57,914 nt of DNA from a virus (IMGVR_UViG_3300005340_000043:1-57914); one strand, 5' to 3'; shown: positions 2,346 to 38,546, counted from the stretch's first letter. The notes: generated by a model from the sequence alone, not told the origin. Program-made: numbers and translations.

Positions 2346-2500
2346 GCGTCATCGTCCTCAGGTGTCTCATGGTGCCACAGCCCGACAGGATTAATAGCAT
2401 CCGTTGGGTGCCTCCACCACCATAAAGGCTTATTGCAAAAAGGGCAGAGTTTGGTGTGGTTAGTTCGCACATCCCTTCGGATTTCAATTTTCGACTTCAC
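2330..2500 (-). CDS. Small zinc-finger-like protein, 56 aa
   Basis: The GTG start overlaps the TGA of the DNA polymerase gene (GTGA) and its TAG lies within the first codons of the nuclease gene. The protein reads LCPFCNKPLWWWRHP, then WHHE, then a distal Cys (DACP), a plausible treble-clef or zinc-ribbon arrangement. Tight packing on both sides is the main evidence that it is real. Likely nucleic-acid or protein binding; the exact role is unknown. Confidence 0.7.
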   Translation of the reverse strand: MKSKIEIRRDVRTNHTKLCPFCNKPLWWWRHPTDAINPVGLWHHETPEDDDACPKY

Positions 2501-5130
2501 ACCGACACCCTCGCATTCTCATCCAGCCATTCCGTCAGGGCGACATTATCCTTCTCCGACCAGGTCAACAACTCAGCCGGGACTTCCTTCGCTTGACCCC
2601 AACGCGTGCCGACCTTGCAATCGGCGATGATCGGAACGTCTACGACAACGTTGAACAGCTCTTCCAGCGGAAGGTTTTCCATGGTGTCTTTGATGATCGG
2701 CAGCGCGTATTCCAAGTCCTCACCATGGATCTCCCAGTTCACTGCATCATGAACCGTTCCGATCGGATACGCCCTGACGCCTTCCTTACGGAATCGCTTG
2801 GCCAGCAATACCATAGACAAGGCACACATGTCCGAGGCGAAACCTTGCACGGGCGAATTGATAGCCTGGCGCTCCGCTTCAGCCTGAACCCCCTGATCAG
2901 GTGAGTAAATGTCGGGCAGGTGCCGGACACGACCCATCGGGGTCTCTACGCGTCCGTACTTGTGCGCGAGTGACCGCTGCTTTGAATGCCAAGGCAATAG
3001 CCCCGGGAACTGGGCGAAGAACGCCTTGCGGAACGCAACCGCCTCTTCCTCTGTAACCCGTAGCCCATAGTTCTCCCATGCCGTCTGGATGAACTTACGC
3101 CAACCCATGCCGTACAGGAAGCCGAAGTTAACCGCCTTGGCCATCTTACGATCGTGAGCTGTGACGCACTGACCACACTCACACTTGCCGCCATGCCAGG
3201 GCTTGCCAGTCATCGTCATGGCCATGGTGGTATGGATGTCCTGGCCGGTGTTGTACAGATGAAGCATGGTTTCCTCGCGGGCCAGCAATGCAGCCACGCG
3301 CAGTTCAACCTGAGAATAATCGAATTCGACGAAGTAGGATCCAGGCGGAGCGCCAAAGACTCCACGCGTCAGATCCCCCCGTGGGACCTGTTGGAGGTTG
3401 ACGCCCCGGATCTTTCTACTTGCGGTGATTTTCTCTGCATCTTCCTTGCCGGAAGACAAACGTCCGGTGACCGTGCCCCACGGCTTGAACACGGAGTGCA
3501 TACGCGAGTTATGGTCAATCTGCTCGGACCATGGAGAGAAGAACGAGGTATCGAATTTGTTCCACTTCACCCGATCCACAAGCAGCTTGGCTACGCTTGA
3601 TCCCGCGATATTGTTCGACTCTTCCGCCAGATAAGCCAGCGTCGCTTCATCCATCGACGGCGCGCCTGGCGACCCATCGTCCTTCGCCTTACCGCGTTTG
3701 AGTACCGGTAGACCAAGGTGATCGTATAGGAACCATCGGGCGAAGTTAGACGCATTCCAGTTCACCCCAAACGACTTGACGTTGCCTTGCCTATCGTACT
3801 TGATGAACGGGTGTTCCTCCGGTACATAGACGTCTAGGGCGTCATGGATTTCCTCGAGCTTGGCCTTGACTACGTTCCAGTTGGTCTTGACCTGTTCTCG
3901 ATCAACGAACACCCCTCTACGTTCTACGTAGCATAGTTCTCTAACAAGAGGCATTGTGAGGTATCGAAAAAACCGCGCCAGCCGGGGCTGGTCCAGCAGG
4001 TTCTTCCGCAGAACAAAGAACAGACGCAATGTGTGCCAGGTGTCTAGCCCATTGTATTCCAGCACCTTCATGATCGGCTCGTTCAGCAGGTCTTTGGTGT
4101 CGATACCCCACGGCTCCGCGCCGAGCAACATCTGACCCAACGGTTTCAAACCCTTGGGACGATTCTCGTCCAAGAGAGCGGCAGCAACGATCGTATCGAA
4201 GGTAGGAACAAACGCTTCCTCACCGGTGAAATGCTGCATCCACTTCGTGTCGTACTTGGCGTTATGGGCCACACGGCGGGGGCACTTCATCAGGGCGCGT
4301 GTGATGTAGCGAAGGATACGTTCCCACTGGCTACGGAACCAGGACTCCGGATGGAACAAAGGCACGTTGAAGGTGTGTGCTGTCTTCATGTCCGGACCGT
4401 CGGTCACTGTGACCGAGATGGACACCACGCGGGCGTCTGATTCGTACTCAGCAGCCCCCGTCGTTTCGATGTCGTACGATGCCGCCCATCCATGCTTTAT
4501 GCGCCTTAGCATGAATCTCAAGTCGTCCAGAGACCGAACCGTGGTCACGTGGTCCGCGTTGGTGTGGTGATCCGGTTCTTCACCTAGACCCCGGATCAAC
4601 CGGCCGAAGTACTGAAGATCGGCGATGAACCCACCTCGGAGGCCTGGGTTCCTGTTCACCGCGCTGGGGCTGATGGTGGGATAGATGAACCCTTGCCCCT
4701 CTTGGATGTTGAACAGCTTCCCTCGGTTCTTCGTGATGTCAGCCCAGCCGGACGCTGCGAACCAGGCTTCACTACCGAGGCATAGGACATAATCGAAGTC
4801 CATGAAGGCGAACTCGGCACGAAGGAACAGAGAGCACTTCTTCTGATCGGTCTTCGTCGGATCCAGGCTATACGTCCGACATTTCAGGGCAGACAACCAC
4901 ATGACTTCGTTGGAGTCAATGCCCGCCTCGATCAGGTAGTCCACCATCTCCCGATGCATCTTGCCACCCGGAGCAATGGGGAACTTCGTAACGATGGCTA
5001 CCCGAGGTTTACCCTTCCCTTCGACCTGGCCGGTAATGCAGACCTCATCATCCTCCGCATCTCCACACAGCCTGCACTCGGTGCAAGCGGCATTGCGTAC
5101 AGCAAGCTCAAGGGCCGGGTATCGTTTCAT
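2497..5130 (-). CDS. DNA polymerase, family A, with UDG-like N-terminal domain and 3'-5' exonuclease
   Basis: Replicative polymerase of 877 aa. Residues 1-180 resemble family 4/5 uracil-DNA glycosylases: Cys16, 19, 22, 84 and 99 could hold an Fe-S cluster, and LKCRTYSLDP and VLCLGSEAW fit. The usual HPS motif, however, reads PTISPS (151-156), so the histidine is lost. A DEDD-type exonuclease follows (DIE 220-222, AHNAKYD near 289, NGLD near 360). The polymerase domain has motif A DYSQVELR (604-611), motif B R661/K665 before NFGFLYG, and motif C VHDAV (793-797). An unusual CxCxxC (650-655) sits just before motif B and may bind zinc. The glycosylase-like domain may recognise uracil without cutting. 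Confidence 0.95.
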   Translation of the reverse strand: MKRYPALELAVRNAACTECRLCGDAEDDEVCITGQVEGKGKPRVAIVTKFPIAPGGKMHREMVDYLIEAGIDSNEVMWLSALKCRTYSLDPTKTDQKKCSLFLRAEFAFMDFDYVLCLGSEAWFAASGWADITKNRGKLFNIQEGQGFIYPTISPSAVNRNPGLRGGFIADLQYFGRLIRGLGEEPDHHTNADHVTTVRSLDDLRFMLRRIKHGWAASYDIETTGAAEYESDARVVSISVTVTDGPDMKTAHTFNVPLFHPESWFRSQWERILRYITRALMKCPRRVAHNAKYDTKWMQHFTGEEAFVPTFDTIVAAALLDENRPKGLKPLGQMLLGAEPWGIDTKDLLNEPIMKVLEYNGLDTWHTLRLFFVLRKNLLDQPRLARFFRYLTMPLVRELCYVERRGVFVDREQVKTNWNVVKAKLEEIHDALDVYVPEEHPFIKYDRQGNVKSFGVNWNASNFARWFLYDHLGLPVLKRGKAKDDGSPGAPSMDEATLAYLAEESNNIAGSSVAKLLVDRVKWNKFDTSFFSPWSEQIDHNSRMHSVFKPWGTVTGRLSSGKEDAEKITASRKIRGVNLQQVPRGDLTRGVFGAPPGSYFVEFDYSQVELRVAALLAREETMLHLYNTGQDIHTTMAMTMTGKPWHGGKCECGQCVTAHDRKMAKAVNFGFLYGMGWRKFIQTAWENYGLRVTEEEAVAFRKAFFAQFPGLLPWHSKQRSLAHKYGRVETPMGRVRHLPDIYSPDQGVQAEAERQAINSPVQGFASDMCALSMVLLAKRFRKEGVRAYPIGTVHDAVNWEIHGEDLEYALPIIKDTMENLPLEELFNVVVDVPIIADCKVGTRWGQAKEVPAELLTWSEKDNVALTEWLDENARVSV

Positions 5131-5597
5131 CGTCTAGTCAAGTGATCCACAGTCAGTCCGGCAGCCCGGAGAAGGTTGATGCCCGCTTGATCGCGGTAAT
5201 CGCGAATGTACGCGACACGGACGAGCCCAGCAGCAATGATGAGCTGAGAGCACGAGTAGCACGGTGAAAGCGTAGTGTAGATGGTTGCACCCTCGACGGA
5301 GATGCCGAACCGCGCACAGTAAGCGAGGGCATTGGCTTCCGCATGGATAGCCACCTGACACCCCCTATTGAGAGCCCTCACCAGTGATTCAGCCCCAGCG
5401 GGAGCATTAGACGTCACATCAAACCTTGCTACCATGTGCTCGCAGTGTGGCATGCCCGCCGGAGCGCCGTTGTACCCAGATCCGATGTGCCGCCCGTCTT
5501 TGGCAATCACTGCCCCGACATGATTACGGCTGCACGTACTCCGATCCTCCCAGACGCGAGCAATAGTCATCAGAGTCTCATCGATAGTAACTCTCAT
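5127..5597 (-). CDS. dCMP deaminase
   Basis: A 156-aa zinc deaminase converting dCMP to dUMP. HAEANA (His85, Glu87) and PCYSC (Cys113, Cys116) form the zinc and catalytic site, and SGYNGAPAG near residue 40 is typical of phage and bacterial dCMP deaminases. The start overlaps the end of the thymidylate-synthase-like gene and the stop overlaps the polymerase start, so these genes are co-transcribed. Here dUMP would feed thymidylate or modified-pyrimidine synthesis. Confidence 0.93.
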   Translation of the reverse strand: MRVTIDETLMTIARVWEDRSTCSRNHVGAVIAKDGRHIGSGYNGAPAGMPHCEHMVARFDVTSNAPAGAESLVRALNRGCQVAIHAEANALAYCARFGISVEGATIYTTLSPCYSCSQLIIAAGLVRVAYIRDYRDQAGINLLRAAGLTVDHLTRR

Positions 5598-6535
5598 ATC
5601 CCCGCCCCCCAGATGCCCTCGTCCTCATCGTATTTTGAAACCAGCTTCATCCGGTTCTTGATCTTGTCCTTGTCACCGGTGAATGCGTGCAAGTTGGCGA
5701 TGTGCATCACCAGCTTACCAGGCCGGACGTTCAGACCTACCTGGTTGTCCATGGTCCGGCGCTTCATCTCAGCGCAGATCCACCTCATGAGAGCGGCGGC
5801 GAAATACGCATCGTTGGACAGGTGACGGTACAGATCACACGACCTAATGTAGTACCGACAGGAGAGATATCCGCCTCGCTGCATGAAGTGGTACCCGAGT
5901 GTACACGGTACTCGGATTGATGACCTAAACTCCAGAGGATTGTCATACGTAGCCAACCCAGCCCCGGTATCCTCGGGAAACCAGATGGGCAAGTATGCCT
6001 GGCGCGTGAGAGGATTGCGGATCAAAAGGGACACCACATCGTTCAGGTCTCCGTAATGAAAGCGGATGCCCGGCGTACCTCCGCATAGGATATCCAAATC
6101 CTTTGGATCAGTCACATGATGAACCGCGCCATCTTGATCCACGTATTTATGCTCATGCCCAGCATGCTTCGGCCAGAACCGCTCCGGGTAGGTGTGGTCG
6201 AAAGTCTCGGCCTGCATGTGCCGGGAATTTCCACCGACTGCATACGGCCAACGGACGTGGGAGGGAGCCGGGTTCAACGGCTGGCCGGACACCCGCTCGG
6301 CGAAGTGTTCTCGCGCCCAGGAGGTATCGACAGCGGGCATCACATCCTGCGGGTTATCCGGCGTAGTCTCCCAGACCAGAGACACGTCCTCGAGCTCGTA
6401 TGTCTTGTGCATATCCGAGCCCCGGGTATCCATGGCCTGCCATTCACCGGTATGCACAGGCTTCTGGTCGAGAAGATCACTCGCCAGCCGCAGATACGAC
6501 GGACGAGGGTTGGTGTGGAAGTAGTACACCTGCAT
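5594..6535 (-). CDS. Thymidylate synthase-superfamily enzyme, candidate dCMP/dUMP (hydroxy)methylase
   Basis: A 313-aa ThyA-fold protein. LLIRNPLTRQAYLPIWFPED (171-190) matches the TS phosphate-binding Arg loop; VPC with Cys211 matches the catalytic nucleophile; LSCRYYIRSCD (224-234) matches the conserved RSxD motif. Aligning RSCD with E. coli ThyA puts Asp242 at Asn177, the residue that selects uracil. Asp there is the hallmark of T4-type dCMP hydroxymethylase. His283 corresponds to the TS histidine, but the nearby Tyr is Phe. It may therefore act on dCMP rather than dUMP. The neighbouring deaminase and the second TS-like gene support a nucleotide-modification or takeover pathway. Substrate is inferred. 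Confidence 0.8.
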   Translation of the reverse strand: MQVYYFHTNPRPSYLRLASDLLDQKPVHTGEWQAMDTRGSDMHKTYELEDVSLVWETTPDNPQDVMPAVDTSWAREHFAERVSGQPLNPAPSHVRWPYAVGGNSRHMQAETFDHTYPERFWPKHAGHEHKYVDQDGAVHHVTDPKDLDILCGGTPGIRFHYGDLNDVVSLLIRNPLTRQAYLPIWFPEDTGAGLATYDNPLEFRSSIRVPCTLGYHFMQRGGYLSCRYYIRSCDLYRHLSNDAYFAAALMRWICAEMKRRTMDNQVGLNVRPGKLVMHIANLHAFTGDKDKIKNRMKLVSKYDEDEGIWGAGI

Positions 6536-6753
6536 TACTTATCGTCCTCCGTCAGTAGTCCTTCACGAACCAGAACTCCACGAAGAGACATGGAAGTCTT
6601 GGCATGGCTTTGCGCAAGTTGAGCCAGGATCTGTTGTGCTCCAACATAATCGTCAAGCTCAAGCGCGAGATAGGCCTCTTGATACTTCCCTTCAATTCGT
6701 TTCATGAACGCTTTGAAGTTCCGCATCATGAGAGCTTTCTTGCGCGGGTTCAT
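6535..6753 (-). CDS. Small helical protein, 72 aa
   Basis: Begins MNPRKKALMMRNFKAFMKRI, a basic amphipathic start followed by an Ala/Leu-rich helical stretch. No known motif is visible. It lies between two thymidylate-synthase-like genes with 1-base junctions on each side, so it may be an accessory subunit of that pathway. That is an inference from position only. Confidence 0.65.
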   Translation of the reverse strand: MNPRKKALMMRNFKAFMKRIEGKYQEAYLALELDDYVGAQQILAQLAQSHAKTSMSLRGVLVREGLLTEDDK

Positions 6754-7736
6754 CAGTCGTCCTCATCATCGGGGATGTCGTCGTCATGGTCGAAGTATGA
6801 CTGATCGCCTCCCCTCCCGGATAGAGGTGAGAAGTCCAGGTTGCGAACCCAGGTGTCCGGCAGTGCGGAAAACGCTCCCTTACCGCCCCGATTGCGAGTC
6901 CCCCCGGCGAACTGGTCCGCGTAGTCCGTCCCGAAGGCCTCCGTGTGGAACCGACGACGTACCCTCGCGAAGGAGGAGAATGACTCATCCCCATACAGAG
7001 TCCCAGCCCGATCGGATTTCAGGATCCGAGCGTAGCCATCCAGGCACTTTCGGTAGCCGGGCTGTCCCCGAGGAGAGAATTCCGTCCGGTTGTCTACGTC
7101 CTCATCCATCTGTGCCCGAATTTCCTTGTCCATCAGCATCCATGCCAGTGATCGGAAGCCATGGAACTGGGCAAGCTCGAGGGTCCACACGAACTGGACG
7201 TCGGCCAGATCGTAGCCGCAGCGTTCGGCACACTCGGCAGCAAAGGCACGGGCTACGGCCATGTCCACCATTGCCAGGTAGCCGAAGTATGTCGTCCGGC
7301 TGTGAAGAGAGACGGTGGGGATTGGCGTAGCCCGGAAGCTGAGAGACAGCATGCAGGATCCCCAGCGACGCCGGACACCCCGACCTACCCCTCGACCCTG
7401 CACGAGCCGTGTACGGACAACTGAAATGCCTCTACGGTCCCCTTGCCGTCGGGGCGGACCCATCCGATCTGAGACCTTGTCCATGCAGTCTTTGAGAGCG
7501 ATGGGATCGAGGTACTGCCGAACCATCATCGACCACCGAGTCGGGGGAACCCAAAGTCGTTTGAGGTTGTAGTCAAAGTCGATCGTGTTGCAGTGGATCG
7601 CAACGTTGTGCAGACCTACCTCTGTACCATGCACGAAGTCCCAGTCCACGCCTTTGCTGTTGTCGCCGTAGACGAGCTGTTCGCACATGGCATCGTGCGC
7701 GTCGACAGGGTTCTTGAATTCGTAGGCGCGAATCAC
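6753..7736 (-). CDS. Second, divergent thymidylate synthase-like protein
   Basis: A 327-aa protein with a weaker TS signature. WGSC with Cys128 is a candidate nucleophile and TVSLHSRTTYFGYLAMVDMA (141-160) can be aligned on the TS LYQRS...FNIA segment. Arg147 matches the phosphate-binding Arg and Asp158 falls at the Asn177 position, as in its neighbour. FVWTLELAQFHGF near 182-195 resembles the TS W-x-H region. The segment 96-125 is very Arg/Gly-rich and is not typical of TS. The C-terminus is an acidic tail. It may be a paralogous pyrimidine-modifying enzyme or a partner subunit. Confidence in the fold is moderate. Confidence 0.6.
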   Translation of the reverse strand: MIRAYEFKNPVDAHDAMCEQLVYGDNSKGVDWDFVHGTEVGLHNVAIHCNTIDFDYNLKRLWVPPTRWSMMVRQYLDPIALKDCMDKVSDRMGPPRRQGDRRGISVVRTRLVQGRGVGRGVRRRWGSCMLSLSFRATPIPTVSLHSRTTYFGYLAMVDMAVARAFAAECAERCGYDLADVQFVWTLELAQFHGFRSLAWMLMDKEIRAQMDEDVDNRTEFSPRGQPGYRKCLDGYARILKSDRAGTLYGDESFSSFARVRRRFHTEAFGTDYADQFAGGTRNRGGKGAFSALPDTWVRNLDFSPLSGRGGDQSYFDHDDDIPDDEDD

Positions 7737-8278
7737 GTTACCGGGTTACCTTCCGAGTCGATGAACCGCTCCCTCTCCGAGCAGAACGCGAGAACCAACT
7801 CCTCACCCGCCATGGTGGAGGCGTAGCACTTTACGTCCTCGTCGTCGAAGGCACGACCGCATCCCTTGCATTTGGTAGATTTCGCGTCGTAGCCTTTCAT
7901 CCACCGACCCAGGTTCTTGTCCTGCTTGACGTTTACCGCTTCAGCCAGCTCGTTCATGGTGACGTCACCAGCCAACATCAGATTCATCAGGAAGATGAAC
8001 ACGTCAGCCAACTCACCGGTGTACCTCTTCTTGCTGATGACCACTCCTTCGCCCTCGGGAGGAGTAGCCCACGGCTTCCAGTGCGTCTCGTCGACCGCCT
8101 CGTGTACTTCGGCGTTGAGAGCAAACGCCTGCACACGGATGAAGTCGGCCAACTCCTTGAAGTCGAGATCGGCCACACGGCGACCCAGCAGAAACGCCTG
8201 TAAATCGTCCTGCCTGGTCAGAAGGCGAGCGAAGCGAGGATCGAGAGTCAAGTTGACCACCACATCTCTAGTTGCCAT
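7733..8278 (-). CDS. All-alpha NTP pyrophosphatase (dimeric dUTPase/MazG-like) with zinc ribbon
   Basis: A 181-aa protein. The first two-thirds are helical with E57-x2-E60 (NAEVHEAVDE) and E89-x2-D92 (GELADVF), the metal-binding pattern of dimeric dUTPases and MazG-type enzymes that hydrolyse dUTP or other dNTPs to the monophosphate. The C-terminal third has KCKGCG and two later cysteines, likely a zinc ribbon not found in the core family. In context it would lower dUTP and supply dUMP. Its first bases belong to a 13-bp tandem duplication shared with the end of the kinase gene. Confidence 0.75.
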   Translation of the reverse strand: MATRDVVVNLTLDPRFARLLTRQDDLQAFLLGRRVADLDFKELADFIRVQAFALNAEVHEAVDETHWKPWATPPEGEGVVISKKRYTGELADVFIFLMNLMLAGDVTMNELAEAVNVKQDKNLGRWMKGYDAKSTKCKGCGRAFDDEDVKCYASTMAGEELVLAFCSERERFIDSEGNPVT

Positions 8279-8295
8279 CTCTAGTTGCCATCCAA
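8267..8295. repeat. 13-bp tandem duplication at a gene junction
   Basis: On the minus strand GATGGCAACTAGA occurs twice in tandem across the end of the kinase gene and the start of the pyrophosphatase gene. One copy supplies the kinase stop and the other the next start, so a small duplication may have created this junction. Confidence 0.6.
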
Positions 8296-8829
8296 CTTCT
8301 GGATTGTCTCGATCAGGTTCTTCGGGGTGTTAAGGGTCCAGTCGTAGCGAACGACAGTCCCGGGCCAGGTGAAAGCACGATACCGATTGAAGATGGTGTA
8401 CCGGTTCTCGAACACCCCCGGCATGTGGGAATCTCGACCCCCCTCTTGTAGCGTGCGCTCCACCTCGGCATATGCCGGATCGCAGATGACAAGGATGGCG
8501 TGATCAGCCATCTGTCGCTGGGCCTGGATAATCCACTTGACGTCGGTGAACTTGCCCGTGAGTCCGCGCTTGATCTTGCGCAGATCGGCGTAGATCAGCT
8601 CACTAATCAGCGGATGCCGATCGTATATGAAAGGGGGACGGCCGACCTGAGTCCAATTGCCAAGCCGATGGAGATCGTCATCCACCCAATCGCTCAGCGA
8701 ATCTACCGGCCCCCCAAGCGATGTGCTGGCCCGCGCATGTTTCACGAACTGCTTGGTTTGCATGAGCTGATCGATCAGTGTTGTCTTACCAGATCCGTCG
8801 CAGCCCTCGATGATAAGGTGTTTCACCAC
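8281..8829 (-). CDS. Deoxynucleoside monophosphate kinase (thymidylate kinase-like)
   Basis: A 182-aa P-loop kinase. The Walker A is GCDGSGKT (9-16) after LIIE, as in thymidylate kinases, and FIYDRHPLISELIY resembles the DRY/DR segment of this family. It would phosphorylate dNMPs, possibly including the modified nucleotides made by the adjacent enzymes. Translation starts at one of two adjacent GTG codons after GAGGAAAC. It is part of the same leftward operon as the nucleotide enzymes. Confidence 0.8.
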   Translation of the reverse strand: MVKHLIIEGCDGSGKTTLIDQLMQTKQFVKHARASTSLGGPVDSLSDWVDDDLHRLGNWTQVGRPPFIYDRHPLISELIYADLRKIKRGLTGKFTDVKWIIQAQRQMADHAILVICDPAYAEVERTLQEGGRDSHMPGVFENRYTIFNRYRAFTWPGTVVRYDWTLNTPKNLIETIQKLDGN

Positions 8830-8854: not shown

Positions 8855-10384
8855 CTATCGGCATGATCCCGAGCGGCGCAAAATTTCCGGACGAGTCAGA
8901 ATTTGCTTGGCTACGTTCCCGTCATTAGTCAGGGTGTCGTAGAGCAATTGATCGACAGTTCCTGGTGCGATAAGAAAGGTGTGCTGTACGGCGTTCGGAT
9001 GTAGCGCGTTTCGATCTCTCATCTGGGTGTAATTGACATAGGATGATGTGAGAGAATACCAGATCGTGTGGCCAGCCACCCGCATGTCTAGTCCGACGCC
9101 ACCGGCCGCAGGCTGCACCACCATGGCGGCCGCTTGCCCCTCGTGCTGAGCGAATCGTCTGAGAGCATCATCAGTAGACGACCGGGACATGCCTCCACGG
9201 ATGGACATGGATGGGATCTTCAACCGCTTACACAGCTCGCTGATAGCATCGAGATTATGTCTCCATTGAGCCACAATAATGGCTGGCTCTTCCTTCTCAA
9301 TTACTTCTTCGACCAGTATCTCTTCGAGCGCTTTGATCTTCTCTTTGCCGATAGAGACTGGGCGGGATACTTGCTTGTTGGGATTACTCGGATGCGGCTC
9401 GATGATGCCGACATACCCGGACGTGATTTGGGCCAGGCGTAAAGTGACGACGAGGGGAATAGACGCTTCGGCAATATCACCGTTCTCAAGCTGAGTGATG
9501 AACTGCTCGGCCATCTCGTCATAGTGACGCGCAGAAGTAGTGAGCGGGACATCGATAATGCGATCTGGGAGAACTGGCGGGAGATCGAAACAATCAGCTC
9601 GCGCAATGACGAGGCCATCCGCATGAATGCCTCTTTGCAGATCCCTAAGGCCGCTCTCACGCGCTCGAAGCCACTGGGGGAATCCATTCCGCTCCGTCCA
9701 GACTCCGGTGTGGGTTCGGAAGTCCTCATACGTCGCACCCCATCTCATGAATCTACCTGGGTTAATCAGCCTCCACTGCATGTAGATATCGGCAGCACGA
9801 CGGGCTTTCGTGATCGGCGTACCAGTCAGGATCAGCTGATACTTGAACCACTTCCTCATCCCGACCACCATGTTGCTGGCCTTGCCAGAGGGATTCTTCA
9901 GCTTGTGGCTCTCGTCGCAGATGATGACCGCATCATCATTGCCTATCCACTTGGCGATCCAGTCTCGGTTCTTGAATCGACCTGTCGATCGGCTTCGACG
10001 ACCGCTCTCTAACCGTTTGCCCGGAGTACCGAAGGTTTCGTAGTTAGTCACCACTACCTGAATGTCCAGATGTCCATCCGGCTGACGAATGGCTCCCTTT
10101 CGGCGCTCCTTCGCATCCCACACGATGATCTGATACACCAGCGGACAGTGTATGTGGAATTCCTTGGCCCATGTCCCGAGGACACGGTTAGGAGCGATAA
10201 TGACTATCTTGCGCACGCCTCTCTTCATGTACAGTGCAGAGACGATGTCAATGGACGTCTTGGTCTTACCGGTACGAGGCTCGAACAGAAGGGCTGCCCC
10301 ATAGCCTCGATTGAACTGGCGAAAGGCAAACCGCATGCCCTGGACTTGGTGAGCATACGGTTTGGTCTTGAATGGGTATTTCAC
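8855..10384 (-). CDS. SNF2-type superfamily 2 DNA helicase/translocase
   Basis: A 509-aa protein. The Walker A variant EPRTGKT lies near residues 35-41, DESHKLKNPSG is the DEAH-type motif II in SNF2 form, LILTGTPITK is motif III, and QMRDRNALH near 450 resembles motif VI. These features match phage DEXH helicases found beside PolA-type polymerases. It may remodel forks or displace bound proteins. The start is GTG and overlaps the TGA of the 34-aa membrane peptide. Confidence 0.9.
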   Translation of the reverse strand: MKYPFKTKPYAHQVQGMRFAFRQFNRGYGAALLFEPRTGKTKTSIDIVSALYMKRGVRKIVIIAPNRVLGTWAKEFHIHCPLVYQIIVWDAKERRKGAIRQPDGHLDIQVVVTNYETFGTPGKRLESGRRSRSTGRFKNRDWIAKWIGNDDAVIICDESHKLKNPSGKASNMVVGMRKWFKYQLILTGTPITKARRAADIYMQWRLINPGRFMRWGATYEDFRTHTGVWTERNGFPQWLRARESGLRDLQRGIHADGLVIARADCFDLPPVLPDRIIDVPLTTSARHYDEMAEQFITQLENGDIAEASIPLVVTLRLAQITSGYVGIIEPHPSNPNKQVSRPVSIGKEKIKALEEILVEEVIEKEEPAIIVAQWRHNLDAISELCKRLKIPSMSIRGGMSRSSTDDALRRFAQHEGQAAAMVVQPAAGGVGLDMRVAGHTIWYSLTSSYVNYTQMRDRNALHPNAVQHTFLIAPGTVDQLLYDTLTNDGNVAKQILTRPEILRRSGSCR

Positions 10385-26184: not shown

Positions 26185-27033
26185 TCAGGCGTAGGTGTAC
26201 GTGGACTGCGCGCCAGCGCCGTTCGCGCCAGCCGGAGTGGTGATGACGATGTTGGCCGCACCAGCCGCGTGAGCCGGAGTGATCAGCGTCACCTGCTGGT
26301 TGTTGTCAACCTGCCAGTCGGTCGCGGCAGTGCCGCCCACCGTGACAGCCGTCGCACCGGTGAAGCCGTAGCCCGTGACGATGACGATCTCGCCACCAGA
26401 CGTGGTGCCGCCAGAGTCCGAGATGGAGTATACGACCGGAGCGGCAGGCGTGTCGAGAACCGGAGCAGCGATGGTGCCAGCCGTCTCCCGGTACACGAAG
26501 TCGTAGAGGGCGTCGTTGATCTCGCTGCCGTTCACCAGGCCCGTCACCAGGCAGGGGAACCCAGTGCCAGAAACGGAGGGAATCAGGAATTCACCGTCTC
26601 CCAGCTCGCCCTCGACATTGCCCGTGGACCGGCAGCGGTAGAGGATCGGCTGGAAGTCTCCGCCGTTGTCGTTGATCGCGCGCCCGATCGCGGTGAAGAA
26701 CGGACGAACGTCCAGCGACTTCTTGCGGTATCGGCGCACCTGGTTGGGCGAGATTCCGGTGTCGATGACCACACCGCCTGCGAGGATGGCGTGAGCGTCG
26801 AATGAGATACCGCCCGATTCGAGCTCCCACTCCAGCTTTGCGCCCTGACCGTGCGAGGTGTATAGCTTGTCGTCACCGCGCAGGTCTTCGTAGTCCTCAG
26901 TGTCGTTGAAAGACAGAGTCCGGGAGACCGGAAGGTCGGTCAGGGTGCTACCGAAGGTGTCGGCAGCCAGCGTCGGGTACTTGATCAGCTGGACATCCCG
27001 CAGCCCGTACGGGAGTGCGTTTCCCAGAGCCAT
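26185..27033 (-). CDS. Major tail (tube) protein with C-terminal IPT/TIG Ig-like domain
   Basis: A 282-aa protein. Residues 1-200 match a tail-tube protein by size and by LSFNDTEDYEDLRGDDKLYT and LEWELESGGISFDAHAIL segments. From residue 195 (APAAPVVYSISDSGGTTSGG, then VGGTAATDWQVDNNQQVTLI) a classic IPT/TIG immunoglobulin-like domain is visible. Such domains decorate tails and may bind the host. It is transcribed just after the Com-like gene. Confidence 0.88.
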   Translation of the reverse strand: MALGNALPYGLRDVQLIKYPTLAADTFGSTLTDLPVSRTLSFNDTEDYEDLRGDDKLYTSHGQGAKLEWELESGGISFDAHAILAGGVVIDTGISPNQVRRYRKKSLDVRPFFTAIGRAINDNGGDFQPILYRCRSTGNVEGELGDGEFLIPSVSGTGFPCLVTGLVNGSEINDALYDFVYRETAGTIAAPVLDTPAAPVVYSISDSGGTTSGGEIVIVTGYGFTGATAVTVGGTAATDWQVDNNQQVTLITPAHAAGAANIVITTPAGANGAGAQSTYTYA

Positions 27034-34385: not shown

Positions 34386-35272
34386 GATTGCCTCCCAAGA
34401 CGAGCCAGGTTAGCCCGAGTTCTGCGATCTATCTCATCGTCAAAGTCCCCCCGACCCAGGGCCTTCTTGAAATCGGAAGAACTCATCATTATGTACGTTA
34501 GGTAGCAAAAGCAGTTTGGATGAGGCTTGTCCGGAATGTCATCAACTGGCCACTCTCCGTTACCGCCGTGATTGGCATAGACGTTGCACAGATCGGGCAC
34601 TCGGTGGCTTCCGGAGAGGTTCCATTGAACGGCTTTAACGCCTGGTCTCTTTGCTCCTTCCACTTGTCGCTCGTGGAAGGCGTTGTTGATTTCAGTTCGG
34701 GCAAGTCGCATAGCCGCATACGAAGAACCTCCGGGAGCGGTGGGGCTAACAAACTTATAAACGTCCGCTGCCAGTTCTTTAGCCGACAGCCCAGAAATGA
34801 GTCCTTGTCTGATGACCTGTTCCACACGACCGTCGTCCAAGGCTCGCTGCCGGTATACCCGCTGAGACAATGCCCGCTTGCGTCGTGTCGCGTCGCTCTT
34901 GAGCCCGGATGCACCAGCGGCTCTCAGCGACCGCACAAGGACATCAGCGGCCCGATCGCCCAGTCCCGCATACGCAACGCGTTCCATTGTCTCTATGGCA
35001 TCCTCAGAGGCCTCTAATGACTCCTGAATGGCCCGCGCCACCAGTGGATTGATCCGGCCGACCCACATAGTCTGCATGAGTCGATTGATGGCAGCCAGTG
35101 TAACTCGAAGCTGTGCCGCACGAACTTGCCCACCTACGCCAACAGGAAGCGCAGCGATCCGGCGTTGAATCGCCTTCGCTGTCGCTTCCAGAATCTTCCG
35201 AAGTTCAGCCTCCGTCTTACCCTGAAGTCGACGGTATGGCTGAAATTCCTTAGGCGTCGGCTGGGCTGCCAT
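34382..35272 (-). CDS. MuF-like minor head protein
   Basis: A 296-aa protein between portal and peptidase genes. The N-terminal half is helical. The C-terminal half contains RLARTEINNAFHERQVEG and the conserved Cys/His set with DLCNVYANHGG and KPHPNCFCYLT, a classic phage Mu gpF pattern. It starts 23 bases inside the portal end and overlaps the peptidase gene by four bases. Confidence 0.88.
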   Translation of the reverse strand: MAAQPTPKEFQPYRRLQGKTEAELRKILEATAKAIQRRIAALPVGVGGQVRAAQLRVTLAAINRLMQTMWVGRINPLVARAIQESLEASEDAIETMERVAYAGLGDRAADVLVRSLRAAGASGLKSDATRRKRALSQRVYRQRALDDGRVEQVIRQGLISGLSAKELAADVYKFVSPTAPGGSSYAAMRLARTEINNAFHERQVEGAKRPGVKAVQWNLSGSHRVPDLCNVYANHGGNGEWPVDDIPDKPHPNCFCYLTYIMMSSSDFKKALGRGDFDDEIDRRTRANLARLGRQS

Positions 35273-36734
35273 CAGCCGTTTCCGCGTTCAGCTGCCCAGT
35301 ACCAAGCTGAGCCTCGTTCCGAGTCTTGAACTCCGCATCAGCCTTGGCCTTGATCCCCTCCGGGAAGGTATACCCCAGCTTCGTCACCTCGGCACGATAG
35401 AAGTCGGTGTCGATGACACCCCGATCGAGCATATCGTTTAGCTCGGCGAAGCGCCCGGCCCGATCGATCGGGATTGCGTCTCCGGTCACACACGTGACGT
35501 CCACACCAGCGAATGTGGTTGCCTCGTAGGCTGCCATCCACATGAGCAAGATGTCATGCCACATCTGCGTCTCGGTGTCCACCAGCAACGTGTTTTTCTC
35601 GCCCGCTTTGGACAGCATCGGCCCGAGCTGAAGCTGAAGCGCAACACCTGACTGGGCGATGGACACGTCAACTGCCCCGACGGCTACTTCCGGCGTAGAC
35701 GAAACCCGGTAGAGGGCCTCCCACAGGCGATCGTAGTGAACCCCGAAGACCTCGCCGATCCCTTGCGCACCCTGAACCTTGTTGAAGTGAGTCCCGTTGT
35801 GATGCAGAACTCGACCAGGACCCATCTGCCAAGCGATGGTGTTGCCCTTTTCATCCGTCGGCTGGGCAGCATCGGTAGCGTACATCCCAATGCCCTGAAG
35901 CGCAACGGACAGGTCCTCATCGCTCATGGTCTGGTTGACAGCACCCATGATTCGCTCGAGGCCACGAACTTCACTCGAGCCAAAGGGATCCCCTGGCTGT
36001 TCCGAGTTCTTGGTGTGGTATACCGGGAGCGCGGTGATTTGCGCGGGCAGTTCGGTCACCGCCTGGATGACCGTTTCTGGTGCCTTGGTGGGATCCTCCC
36101 ACTCGTCGACTTTGAAGATGCCTTCCTCAACGGAGATGGTTCCCTTGTCCGTCTTCCGGTAGGTCAACCGCTGGATACGAGGATCTCCGTCGTCGTTTGT
36201 GGTCTCTTGCACCAGGTGACAGCCAATGATCTCCTCGATGTCGTCATCTTGGAAGATGGGGAAGTACATCCCCGGATCGAGCGATGTCATCTTGATGCGT
36301 GAACCCTGGGGCTTGTCAGGATCGGCAGTGATATGCCAGATCGAGTCACCCCAGATCAAATTGTATCGCTTCTTGCCGTTGAACTTGCTCTTGTATCGCT
36401 CACGACGCATCAGGTCAGCGATTGCCATCTGAGCACCAGCGACCGCCTGGGCATCCCCCGGGGTGAGTGATGCAGGGATCGCCACGACTTGGAAATCTGC
36501 ACCGTAGTAGCGGTTCGTCGTGTCGATGATCGTCCGAGTAGAAGGAATGTAGATCGGCTGGCTGTTGCTGCCCCGGAGCGCCACCTTCAGGATATCCGGC
36601 ATGTTCCAGTACATTTGCTCATACAGTACGTACGAGGACACCCGAGCCGAATCCAGCTCGTCAGAAATCCACGCAGGCTTCTGTCCGAAAAATTCCTGCC
36701 CCGTTGAGTATGGGGTGAAGGTCCCGCTAGCCAT
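35250..36734 (-). CDS. Portal protein
   Basis: A 494-aa protein of typical portal size between terminase and MuF. Features are YYGADFQVVAIPASL near the start, ERIMGAVNQTMSDEDLSVAL near 260, GAVDVSIAQSGVALQLQLGP near 350 and DGRFAE-like wing segments. Assignment by position, length and these SPP1/HK97-type patterns. Confidence 0.88.
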   Translation of the reverse strand: MASGTFTPYSTGQEFFGQKPAWISDELDSARVSSYVLYEQMYWNMPDILKVALRGSNSQPIYIPSTRTIIDTTNRYYGADFQVVAIPASLTPGDAQAVAGAQMAIADLMRRERYKSKFNGKKRYNLIWGDSIWHITADPDKPQGSRIKMTSLDPGMYFPIFQDDDIEEIIGCHLVQETTNDDGDPRIQRLTYRKTDKGTISVEEGIFKVDEWEDPTKAPETVIQAVTELPAQITALPVYHTKNSEQPGDPFGSSEVRGLERIMGAVNQTMSDEDLSVALQGIGMYATDAAQPTDEKGNTIAWQMGPGRVLHHNGTHFNKVQGAQGIGEVFGVHYDRLWEALYRVSSTPEVAVGAVDVSIAQSGVALQLQLGPMLSKAGEKNTLLVDTETQMWHDILLMWMAAYEATTFAGVDVTCVTGDAIPIDRAGRFAELNDMLDRGVIDTDFYRAEVTKLGYTFPEGIKAKADAEFKTRNEAQLGTGQLNAETADGSPADA

Positions 36735-36742
36735 TCCTCACC

Positions 36743-38119
36743 TCAGCCATTCATGTCAGCGGTAGATACAAATGATCCACCGACTCCGGCAGCACCAAAG
36801 TAACCACGGAAGAACCGGCCTAGTGCCTCGACTCCGTGGTTGTCTTTGTCGAGGGGATTCTCGGAATCTGACCGCTGTTCGCTTTTCTTTTCCGGCCATT
36901 TATAGCCTTCTCTCATTTCCCAGATCAATGTCTGGCAATGAGTACGGTCGATCATAAGACGCGGACGGCGTTCCGCATCACCCTCGGGAAGGTGAGAGTT
37001 TTGAACTTTCATGGACCGTCTGATAAGGGCAAGACGGGTCCGAATCTCACCCCCGGTATTCCGACTCGCCGGTATCCGCAACTCTCGCTGCATCGTACGC
37101 GTGTCGTCCGGCTCCGCAGGGTCAGGGTAGATCATTCGGCAGACACGAACCAAGCCAGGAAACTCCAGTTTGAGGTCGTGACACACCTCCGAGGTGTCCA
37201 GCTCCTGCCGCCGGAATTCACGAATGACCCGGATGTCCCCGAACGGTCCTACCTGGATGAACAGAACAACGAAGGGATTAGTAAACCCGTAGTCCACGGC
37301 CATGTAAAGAGGCCAGTCAGGTTCGTAATCGAAGTCCCCAAGATGTTCGTCTTCGTCAAATTCCTTCATGACGACACCGGTCTTGTCGGTGAACTCCGCA
37401 CCGTACTGCCGGTCAAACTCGTCCTTGGTTAGGTCAGATTCCGCTTCGAGGATTTCTGGATCTTGCCGACCTCCGGGGAAGATGATGTCGTTAGTCCAGG
37501 ACGGCCGCTTCCATGACTGCCATGAAGCAAACCGTGCACTCTGGCCGCGCTCGTACAGGTGATACAGCAAGGACGAGGAGGAAGTACCTTCCGGGACGCC
37601 GGAGAATACAGCGATGCCGCGACGGTCAGAAAGCGTAGGCCGGATGTACTGACCCCAGGTGTTTCGTCGGTGCCGACCAGCTTCGACCATGAGGACCCAA
37701 TCCAGTCCATCACCGACGAGCTTATCGGGGTGTGCTGCGCTTTTGCCAATGATCTCAGCTCCATTCGCCAATGCTATGTGCAAAGCACCAGCGTCGGAAT
37801 TCTTCTGGAACTTGATTGCATCTTTATCAAGCCCGAGTTTACGAAGGGCGTCGTAGATGATTCGGAATTCCTTCTCCGCATCGGAGTAGTTCGGCCCGAC
37901 CACCCAGCCAAGCGTTGGTGTTCTACCGTCGAATCGGGAGGGTGTGAGAGCCCGTGTGGCCATCTCGAAGCCACCAAAGTACGTCTTGCCCCAGCGCCGA
38001 CCACACCGCACGACCTTGAATCTGGTTCGGTTCTGGTGTAGGTCACGCTGACCGGCATGAGGGTAATACCCCCAGACATCTTGGAACAGCCCGGTCTTGG
38101 TCAGAACTGGGGCAGACAC
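36743..38119 (-). CDS. Terminase large subunit
   Basis: About 458 aa from GTG at 38119. The Walker A is CGRRWGKT near residues 38-45, and LDWVLMVEAG near 125-134 supplies the Walker B acid. MAVDYGFTNPFVVLF is the first nuclease motif and KDNHGVEALGRFFRGYF is the C-terminal motif. The longer frame to 38380 is rejected because a well-formed 53-aa gene occupies 38101-38262 in another frame. A weak ribosome site (GGGGG) precedes the GTG. It packages DNA into the portal. Confidence 0.92.
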   Translation of the reverse strand: MSAPVLTKTGLFQDVWGYYPHAGQRDLHQNRTRFKVVRCGRRWGKTYFGGFEMATRALTPSRFDGRTPTLGWVVGPNYSDAEKEFRIIYDALRKLGLDKDAIKFQKNSDAGALHIALANGAEIIGKSAAHPDKLVGDGLDWVLMVEAGRHRRNTWGQYIRPTLSDRRGIAVFSGVPEGTSSSSLLYHLYERGQSARFASWQSWKRPSWTNDIIFPGGRQDPEILEAESDLTKDEFDRQYGAEFTDKTGVVMKEFDEDEHLGDFDYEPDWPLYMAVDYGFTNPFVVLFIQVGPFGDIRVIREFRRQELDTSEVCHDLKLEFPGLVRVCRMIYPDPAEPDDTRTMQRELRIPASRNTGGEIRTRLALIRRSMKVQNSHLPEGDAERRPRLMIDRTHCQTLIWEMREGYKWPEKKSEQRSDSENPLDKDNHGVEALGRFFRGYFGAAGVGGSFVSTADMNG

Positions 38120-38262
38120 AGATCCCCCAACGGCTCGAAGAATCGTGAAAGGTCGGGCAGTTCTTCGGGAGGATCGGGGCAGGAAACACCCAGCGCGGGC
38201 ATACAGCCCAAACATGATCTGTCGATGCAATAGGGCCAGTGAATGCCCGGCTGGGTATCCAC
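38101..38262 (-). CDS. 53-aa Cys-rich protein preceding the terminase
   Basis: GTG overlaps the TAG of the upstream gene (TAGTG). It reads VDTQPGIHWPYCIDRSCLGC with further Cys at 27 and 48 and ends near the terminase start. This hidden small gene was obscured by the long terminase frame. C-x4-C-x2-C may bind zinc. Function unknown; packaging accessory by position. Confidence 0.62.
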   Translation of the reverse strand: MDTQPGIHWPYCIDRSCLGCMPALGVSCPDPPEELPDLSRFFEPLGDLCLPQF

Positions 38263-38546
38263 TACTCCATCCCGATGGTGTTAAAAGCGCCCTCGAGCTC
38301 GGGGGCAGCCACCCCATCACCGGGGTCAGTCGGGTCGATGGCGTAGATCTGACGCATCCGCTCGACACCGGTTGGCACATGCGGAGCCGGTTGAGTCAAT
38401 CCAACCACTCCACCGAACTCGGTAGCCGTCAGGTCGTCGTATTTCGTCGAGTTCGTGAGAACGTCACGGCTGGTGTAGTTCTTCTCCGGTTCTGCGTGGT
38501 CCAGGCGGGGATTCAGCCCGTACTGCGGACCAATTGGCTCCGTCAT
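38262..38546 (-). CDS. 94-aa protein of the packaging region
   Basis: ATG with CGGAGGTAG upstream gives MTEPIGPQYGLNPRLDHAEP. It contains FGGVVGLTQPAPHVPTGVER and a Pro/Asp-rich tail; no motif recognised. It runs into the 53-aa gene through a TAGTG overlap and lies in the run between small and large terminase. Confidence 0.65.
   Translation of the reverse strand: MTEPIGPQYGLNPRLDHAEPEKNYTSRDVLTNSTKYDDLTATEFGGVVGLTQPAPHVPTGVERMRQIYAIDPTDPGDGVAAPELEGAFNTIGME

Follow-up and report, generated by a model that had tools for sequence, protein, structure and literature searches.

The most probable reading of the two genes analysed here, to which we assign a probability of about 0.6, is that the 313-residue protein P1 belongs, as a cytosine-specific enzyme, to the thymidylate synthase (TS)/pyrimidine hydroxymethylase superfamily and acts within a dedicated gene block, together with the 327-residue protein P2, a diverged and P1-dependent companion. 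The window, meaning the whole stretch of DNA that was analysed (57,914 nucleotides), has 62 of its 69 selected open reading frames on the minus strand and contains no tRNA genes. Since it encodes weak matches to a terminase and an SPP1-type portal and a clear match to a major tail protein (36743-38380, 35250-36734 and 26185-27033), it represents a tailed-phage genome. P2 (6753-7736) and P1 (5594-6535), both on the minus strand, exist as the two TS-like genes that the initial annotation had described. Between them, a 72-residue open reading frame (6535-6753, minus strand) overlaps each neighbour by one base, and profile searches of Pfam and PHROG assigned it to no convincing family. The block, which lies entirely on the minus strand, starts with an SNF2-type helicase (8855-10384; PF00176, 1.6e-20). 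This is followed by a P-loop dNMP-kinase-like protein (8281-8829; PHROG 761, a weak match at 3.1e-8; TIGR00041, 5e-4) and an all-alpha NTP pyrophosphatase of the dUTPase/dCTPase type (7733-8278; PHROG 18650, 4.7e-24; Pfam dUTPase_2, slightly below cut-off at 1.8e-4). Beyond the pair lie a dCMP deaminase (5127-5597; PF00383, 6.4e-22; PHROG 174, 5.5e-51) and a family A DNA polymerase with a 3'-5' exonuclease and an N-terminal UDG-superfamily domain (2497-5130; PF00476, 4.5e-66; PF01612, 1.2e-9; PF03167, 8.4e-9). These profiles bear out the deaminase, pyrophosphatase, kinase and UDG-like-domain polymerase that had been proposed as neighbours, the kinase by its weak match. No tailoring genes, glycosyltransferases included, were recognised among the window proteins scanned. 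The UDG-like domain spans residues 29-164 of the polymerase and occurs in 59 of the 60 loci with the module. UDG family 4 is characterised by an HPS motif, and as the window polymerase has SPSAVNRNP at that site, its domain may bind without cleaving.

P1 aligned to TS both through PHROG 160 (E 5.5e-27) and, with hhalign, through a small TS alignment (probability 99.3, E 4.2e-20). When E. coli ThyA and T4 gp42, taken from genome records, were used as references, the RSCD motif of P1 placed Asp242 (codon 5810-5812) on ThyA Asn177 without a gap, exactly as had been claimed. In the same register, C211 corresponded to Cys146, T212 to the His147 position, R231 to Arg166, D234 to Asp169 and H283 to His207. 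Relatives of P1 and P2 were gathered from viral contigs and phage records. Cys146, Arg126, Arg166, Asp177 and His207 were invariant across 156 distinct P1 relatives, the controls at position 177 reading Asp for T4 and Asn for ThyA and M6. Position 147, which is His in ThyA, was Thr (129) or Ser (27) in every relative, and the phosphate site Arg166/Ser167 was retained as Arg in 156/156 and Ser in 149/156. The Gly173 position was mostly His and the Tyr209 position Phe or Trp, and the Tyr94 equivalent received no confident placement in the alignment. The catalytic Glu58 is highly conserved across TS, CH and dCH enzymes (PMC6400193). In P1, an invariant Glu80 lies in the helix that matches the one bearing ThyA Glu58, and the automatic alignment of the relatives put Asn, Asp or Arg at this position; the alignment is unsure there in either case. 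Structure prediction and alignment to gp42 and ThyA, the check that had accompanied the initial annotation, gave a TS fold for both P1 and P2. The AlphaFold model of P1, with an overall pLDDT of 69 and a poorly predicted conserved insertion, matched E. faecalis TS in Foldseek at 9e-12. The best solved matches of the P1 profile were the CMP hydroxymethylase MilA (E 2e-8) and a phage dCMP hydroxylase.

Asp at position 177 shifts ThyA to dCMP, and in the MetaGPA analysis positions 177 and 147 were the two best markers separating modified-cytosine TS from ordinary TS (PMC8670742). The Asn177 by which ThyA is fitted for dUMP is replaced by Asp in all P1 relatives. Judged by its residues, the most likely identity of P1 is a folate-dependent enzyme resembling dCMP 5-hydroxymethylase. 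TS homologues with Asp177 were also seen in Pseudomonas phage AAT-1 and Gordonia phage GMA2 (loci L029 3620-4516 and L027 3908-4750), which may therefore be of the dCMP type too.

P2 is a near full-length match of PHROG 13667, a family annotated as 'unknown function' (8.8e-78); with this match and the relatives found, a chance open reading frame was ruled out. Its C128 corresponds to Cys146, R147 to Arg166, D158 (codon 7263-7265) to Asn177 and H192 to His207, while Y150 occupies the position of Asp169. Asp158 lies eleven residues past Arg147, the spacing found in ThyA. Cys128, Arg147, Tyr150, Asp158 and Gln190 were invariant in 71 rows (69 distinct), and His192 was kept in 67 of the 71. The helix RWSMMVRQY contains Gln74 and no Glu, the Glu58 position being inferred there. 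A remote, proteobacterial-type P2 was linked to P2 by hhalign (probability 93, E 3.4e-7), and in its 52 rows (48 distinct) Cys110, Arg136, Glu139 and Asp147 were invariant, with the His207 equivalent in 41. The earlier assignment of Asp158 to the substrate-selecting site thus holds in 71/71 P2 rows and, as Asp147, in 52/52 rows of the remote family, and its recurrence there and in 156/156 P1 relatives argues that Asp at site 177 is not due to chance. P2 retains the substrate-side and nucleophile residues and, as far as sequence can tell, is changed on the cofactor side. P2 lacks Asp169 and apparently Glu58 as well, and therefore probably does not perform the standard folate reaction.

The divergence of P2 was confirmed; the Arg/Gly stretch described as an insertion peculiar to it turned out to be a motif conserved among its relatives. 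Aligned with 19 of them, residues 102-128 read approximately RGiavlRT..V..RGG...tR.WGSCML and lead to the strand of the catalytic Cys, the window copy being short and without five residues that most relatives have. A frameshift or assembly error behind this stretch was ruled out by its conservation in 20 and then 71 sequences. The AlphaFold2 model of P2, built from 16 rows, reached a pLDDT of 82.4 and a pTM of 0.84. In a Foldseek search of the PDB its top match was the dCMP hydroxylase of phage HY126 (9iqu, 3.7e-6), with modest TM-scores (0.40/0.57) and many TS structures close behind; below it came MilA, then T4 dCMP hydroxymethylase and numerous structures of ThyA. Among predicted viral structures (BFVD), P2 matched gp42 of phage Acj9 (3e-6) and an uncharacterised protein of Pseudomonas phage PMBT14 (7.6e-7) whose length equals that of the gene which takes the place of P2 in PMBT14, a link to PMBT14 that is independent of the profile comparison. 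Its best BFVD neighbours (A0A8S5NA65, A0A8S5VMM2 and A0A8S5MQL3) are uncharacterised, and one BFVD match carries the annotation of a CMP/dCMP deaminase domain protein, possibly a fusion. Profile-profile comparison of P2 with P1 or TS gave no significant link, so that fold and motif alone connect them, and a sequence-profile search of the PDB returned no match for P2 even at E 10. A search of GTDB genomes found P2 on two metagenome-bin contigs only, which are probably viral. A literature search yielded neither a description of P2 nor a known TS heteromer; the sole hint in records or literature was that two entries name the remote P2 'pyrimidine hmase synthase'. Nevertheless, the models and alignments identify P2 as a real TS-fold family that is large and conserved. 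The earlier suggestion that P2 may do something new is thereby better founded, given a conserved TS-fold family with its substrate residues kept and its cofactor side changed.

The block, ordered as kinase, NTP pyrophosphatase, P2, P1, dCMP deaminase and UDG-domain polymerase, recurs in phages of Actinobacteria, Gamma- and Alphaproteobacteria. It was found in Gordonia, Streptomyces, Microbacterium, Curtobacterium and Mycobacterium phages, hosts for which more than 80 phage records carry the pair, and, with the remote P2, in Serratia, Pseudomonas, Yersinia and Brevundimonas phages (the Brevundimonas loci having some genes unannotated). An iterative search of 60 loci, in which a few short matches may be false, recovered the kinase, the deaminase and the polymerase in 59/60 each, the pyrophosphatase in 47/60 and the SNF2-type helicase in 51/60. 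The helicase belongs to the actinophage-type module and was not found in the proteobacterial-type loci.

P1 lay directly downstream of P2 in 66/66 untruncated loci, with three more ending at a contig edge, and adjoined the remote P2 in 44/44, one being cut by the contig end. Taking both P2 types together, P2 was never found without an adjacent P1 (0/110 untruncated loci). Conversely, 29 of 80 P1 loci had no recognisable P2 nearby, and a search of 22 contigs with such P1 genes found no P2 elsewhere, a search that had no positive control and in which the contigs may be fragments. The idea that P1 and P2 are always paired was thus rejected in one direction: P2 goes with P1, while P1 need not have P2. 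The P2-less P1 genes form a 14-row clade and the loci L112 and L118, with active-site residues unchanged. In the P1 tree they sit at two positions, lying between the P2 groups or inside them, which would fit loss of an old P2 partner; the root of this tree is unsure, as it rests on very long outgroup branches. Several loci among L123-L183 represent a P1 clade on phage contigs that reach 154 kb, where P1 has no P2 and mostly follows directly after a GMP-reductase/IMPDH-like gene. In L112 and L118, the genes after P1 encode a P-loop kinase, a MazG-like protein and a protein whose PPC motif resembles that of cytosine-5 DNA methyltransferases. At locus L052 (4953-6883), tandem P2 genes precede P1 (385.8 and 257.7 bits).

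The strict P2-to-P1 adjacency could be explained by an obligate heteromer, in which P1 and P2 swap phosphate-binding arginines between their active sites and P2 is largely non-catalytic. Arg126/127 are indeed shared across the interface in TS dimers, the Arg before the matching strand is kept in both families, and the conserved P1 segment 86-161 was not confidently folded alone. However, the P2-less lineages keep the same active-site residues in P1 (within the limits of the P2 search noted above), and a mirror-tree test on distance matrices showed no co-evolution of P1 and P2 above shared ancestry (partial correlation 0.14). Moreover, P2 itself has invariant substrate residues, whose conservation would not be required in a dead partner. 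We therefore regard this arrangement as doubtful, although it fares best among the alternatives.

The preferred reading of P1 as a hydroxymethylase was also weighed against a dCMP 5-methylase of the Xp12 type, in which hydride transfer would complete the methyl group and the phage DNA would carry 5-methylcytosine. ThyA N177D yields 5mdCMP, according to a report cited in PMC8670742, and P1 retains W121, the equivalent of Trp80. On the other hand, P1 lacks the ThyA-type C-terminal tail that closes over the cofactor: the tail after His207 has a median of 22.5 residues in the P1 relatives and 30 in the window P1, whereas ThyA has 57 and T4 gp42 has 30. This short, gp42-like tail points to probable hydroxymethylation rather than methylation, and we consider a methylase unlikely.

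Slightly less probable still is that P2 or the pair acts as a flavin-dependent dCMP 5-hydroxylase of the AfhB type known from RB69-like phages, which would yield 5-hydroxy-dC derivatives. It would account for the top fold match of P2, a related entry of which is described with FAD, for the good score of P1 against the dCMP hydroxylase, and for the loss of the folate-side Asp169, which is Tyr in P2 (71/71) and Asn in the hydroxylase. Against it stand the modest TM-scores, the many TS structures of similar rank and the Glu at position 169 in the proteobacterial P2 (52/52).

That both proteins work on dUMP as ordinary or diverged thymidylate synthases, as the annotation of P1 relatives as 'thymidylate synthase' in dozens of GenBank records implies and as a dCMP deaminase and dUTPase-like protein feeding dUMP would allow, is very improbable in view of Asp177 and Thr/Ser147 in 156/156 P1 relatives, a PF00303 match of the window P1 that is under the Pfam cut-off and far under the NCBIfam TS cut-offs, and the separate thymidylate synthases of some carriers. 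A canonical ThyA adjoins P1 in Microbacterium phage Huwbert (gp68, E 8e-123), another strong ThyA is present on contig G003 of the L123-L183 clade (E 2e-83), and ThyX is annotated in two Manatee Spring phages carrying the pair; in Huwbert and these two phages, therefore, dTMP has another source than the pair. From the two marker residues in all P1 relatives and these dedicated synthases, cytosine is more likely than uracil to be the modified base. Phage M6, whose DNA carries 5-(2-aminoethyl)deoxyuridine (5-NedU; PMC6449724), has Asn at both 147 and 177 of its TS in our alignment, and an Ackermannvirus TS has Asn at 147, with an alignment slip at 177. The modified-pyrimidine pathway of the initial annotation is well supported by sequence at the nucleotide level, with its product in DNA predicted. 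Since two TS relatives with the dCMP signature lie in a block common to many phages, the phages that carry it probably incorporate a modified cytosine during replication.

Homology, residues, fold, gene order and co-occurrence were computed; from these we infer the chemistry, the order of steps and the modification of virion DNA in the following scheme. Cys211 of P1 would attack C6 of dCMP, with Asp242 binding and protonating the cytosine N3, and the methylene of CH2-THF would be added to C5 and most likely be quenched by water to give 5-hydroxymethyl-dCMP. Candidates for the product of the pathway would be 5hmdC, 5mdC, 5-OH-dC or another derivative. The NTP pyrophosphatase would lower dCTP and dUTP and supply dCMP, the kinase would lift the modified monophosphate towards the triphosphate, and the phage PolA would incorporate it, while spare dCMP could pass through the dCMP deaminase to dUMP and dTTP. 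P2 may act on the product of P1 or support P1, or it may depend on flavin as its nearest fold neighbour does. As a tentative extension, P1 would form 5-hydroxymethyl-dCMP and P2 would then carry out a further C5 reaction, new to the TS fold, giving a hypermodified cytosine that a large, partly cultured group of actinophages and proteobacterial phages would make before the polymerase incorporates it. If this were true, the TS fold would be used twice within one pathway. If P1 works as predicted, the carriers have modified cytosine, which is relevant to restriction, CRISPR and the sequencing of phages.

Among known systems, the TS homologues of M6/ViI-like phages are of the pyrimidine-modification kind, like P1, and belong to a 5hmdU pathway; the 5-NedU of M6 derives from 5hmdU. 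The Ackermannvirus homologues are weak tblastn relatives of P1. In contrast to P1, the M6/ViI-like proteins have Asn at 147 (M6 also at 177) and long C-terminal extensions, and no P2 was recognised beside them. T4 gp42 (1b5d/6a9a) is like P1 in Asp177, Thr147, Cys146, Arg166, Asp169, His207, Arg126 and the short tail, and T4 has genes of similar role for a dCTPase, a dNMP kinase and a dCMP deaminase. P1 differs from gp42 by a conserved insertion some 45 residues long (ERVxGxPLNPxPS...HTYPERxWP) and by Gln for Arg127, His for Gly173 and Phe for Tyr209; unlike in T4, it is accompanied by P2, and no glucosyltransferase was recognised. The CMP 5-hydroxymethylase MilA (5b6d), the top solved match of the P1 profile and high on the fold list of P2, differs in using a ribonucleotide substrate, in serving an antibiotic pathway and in being a single protein. 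The HY126 dCMP hydroxylase AfhB (9iqu, 9iqc), a segment of which is identical in RB69, is the best fold match of P2 and shares with it the retained Asp177 and the replaced Asp169, and its substrate is dCMP; residue 169 is Asn in AfhB, whereas it is Tyr or Glu in the two P2 types. PHROG 13667 itself, of which P2 is a near full-length member, previously had no assigned function. What is new here is that this family is assigned to the TS fold, is connected with a remote sister family of proteobacterial type and depends one-way on P1, and it thereby gains a fold, a partner and a substrate that can be tested.
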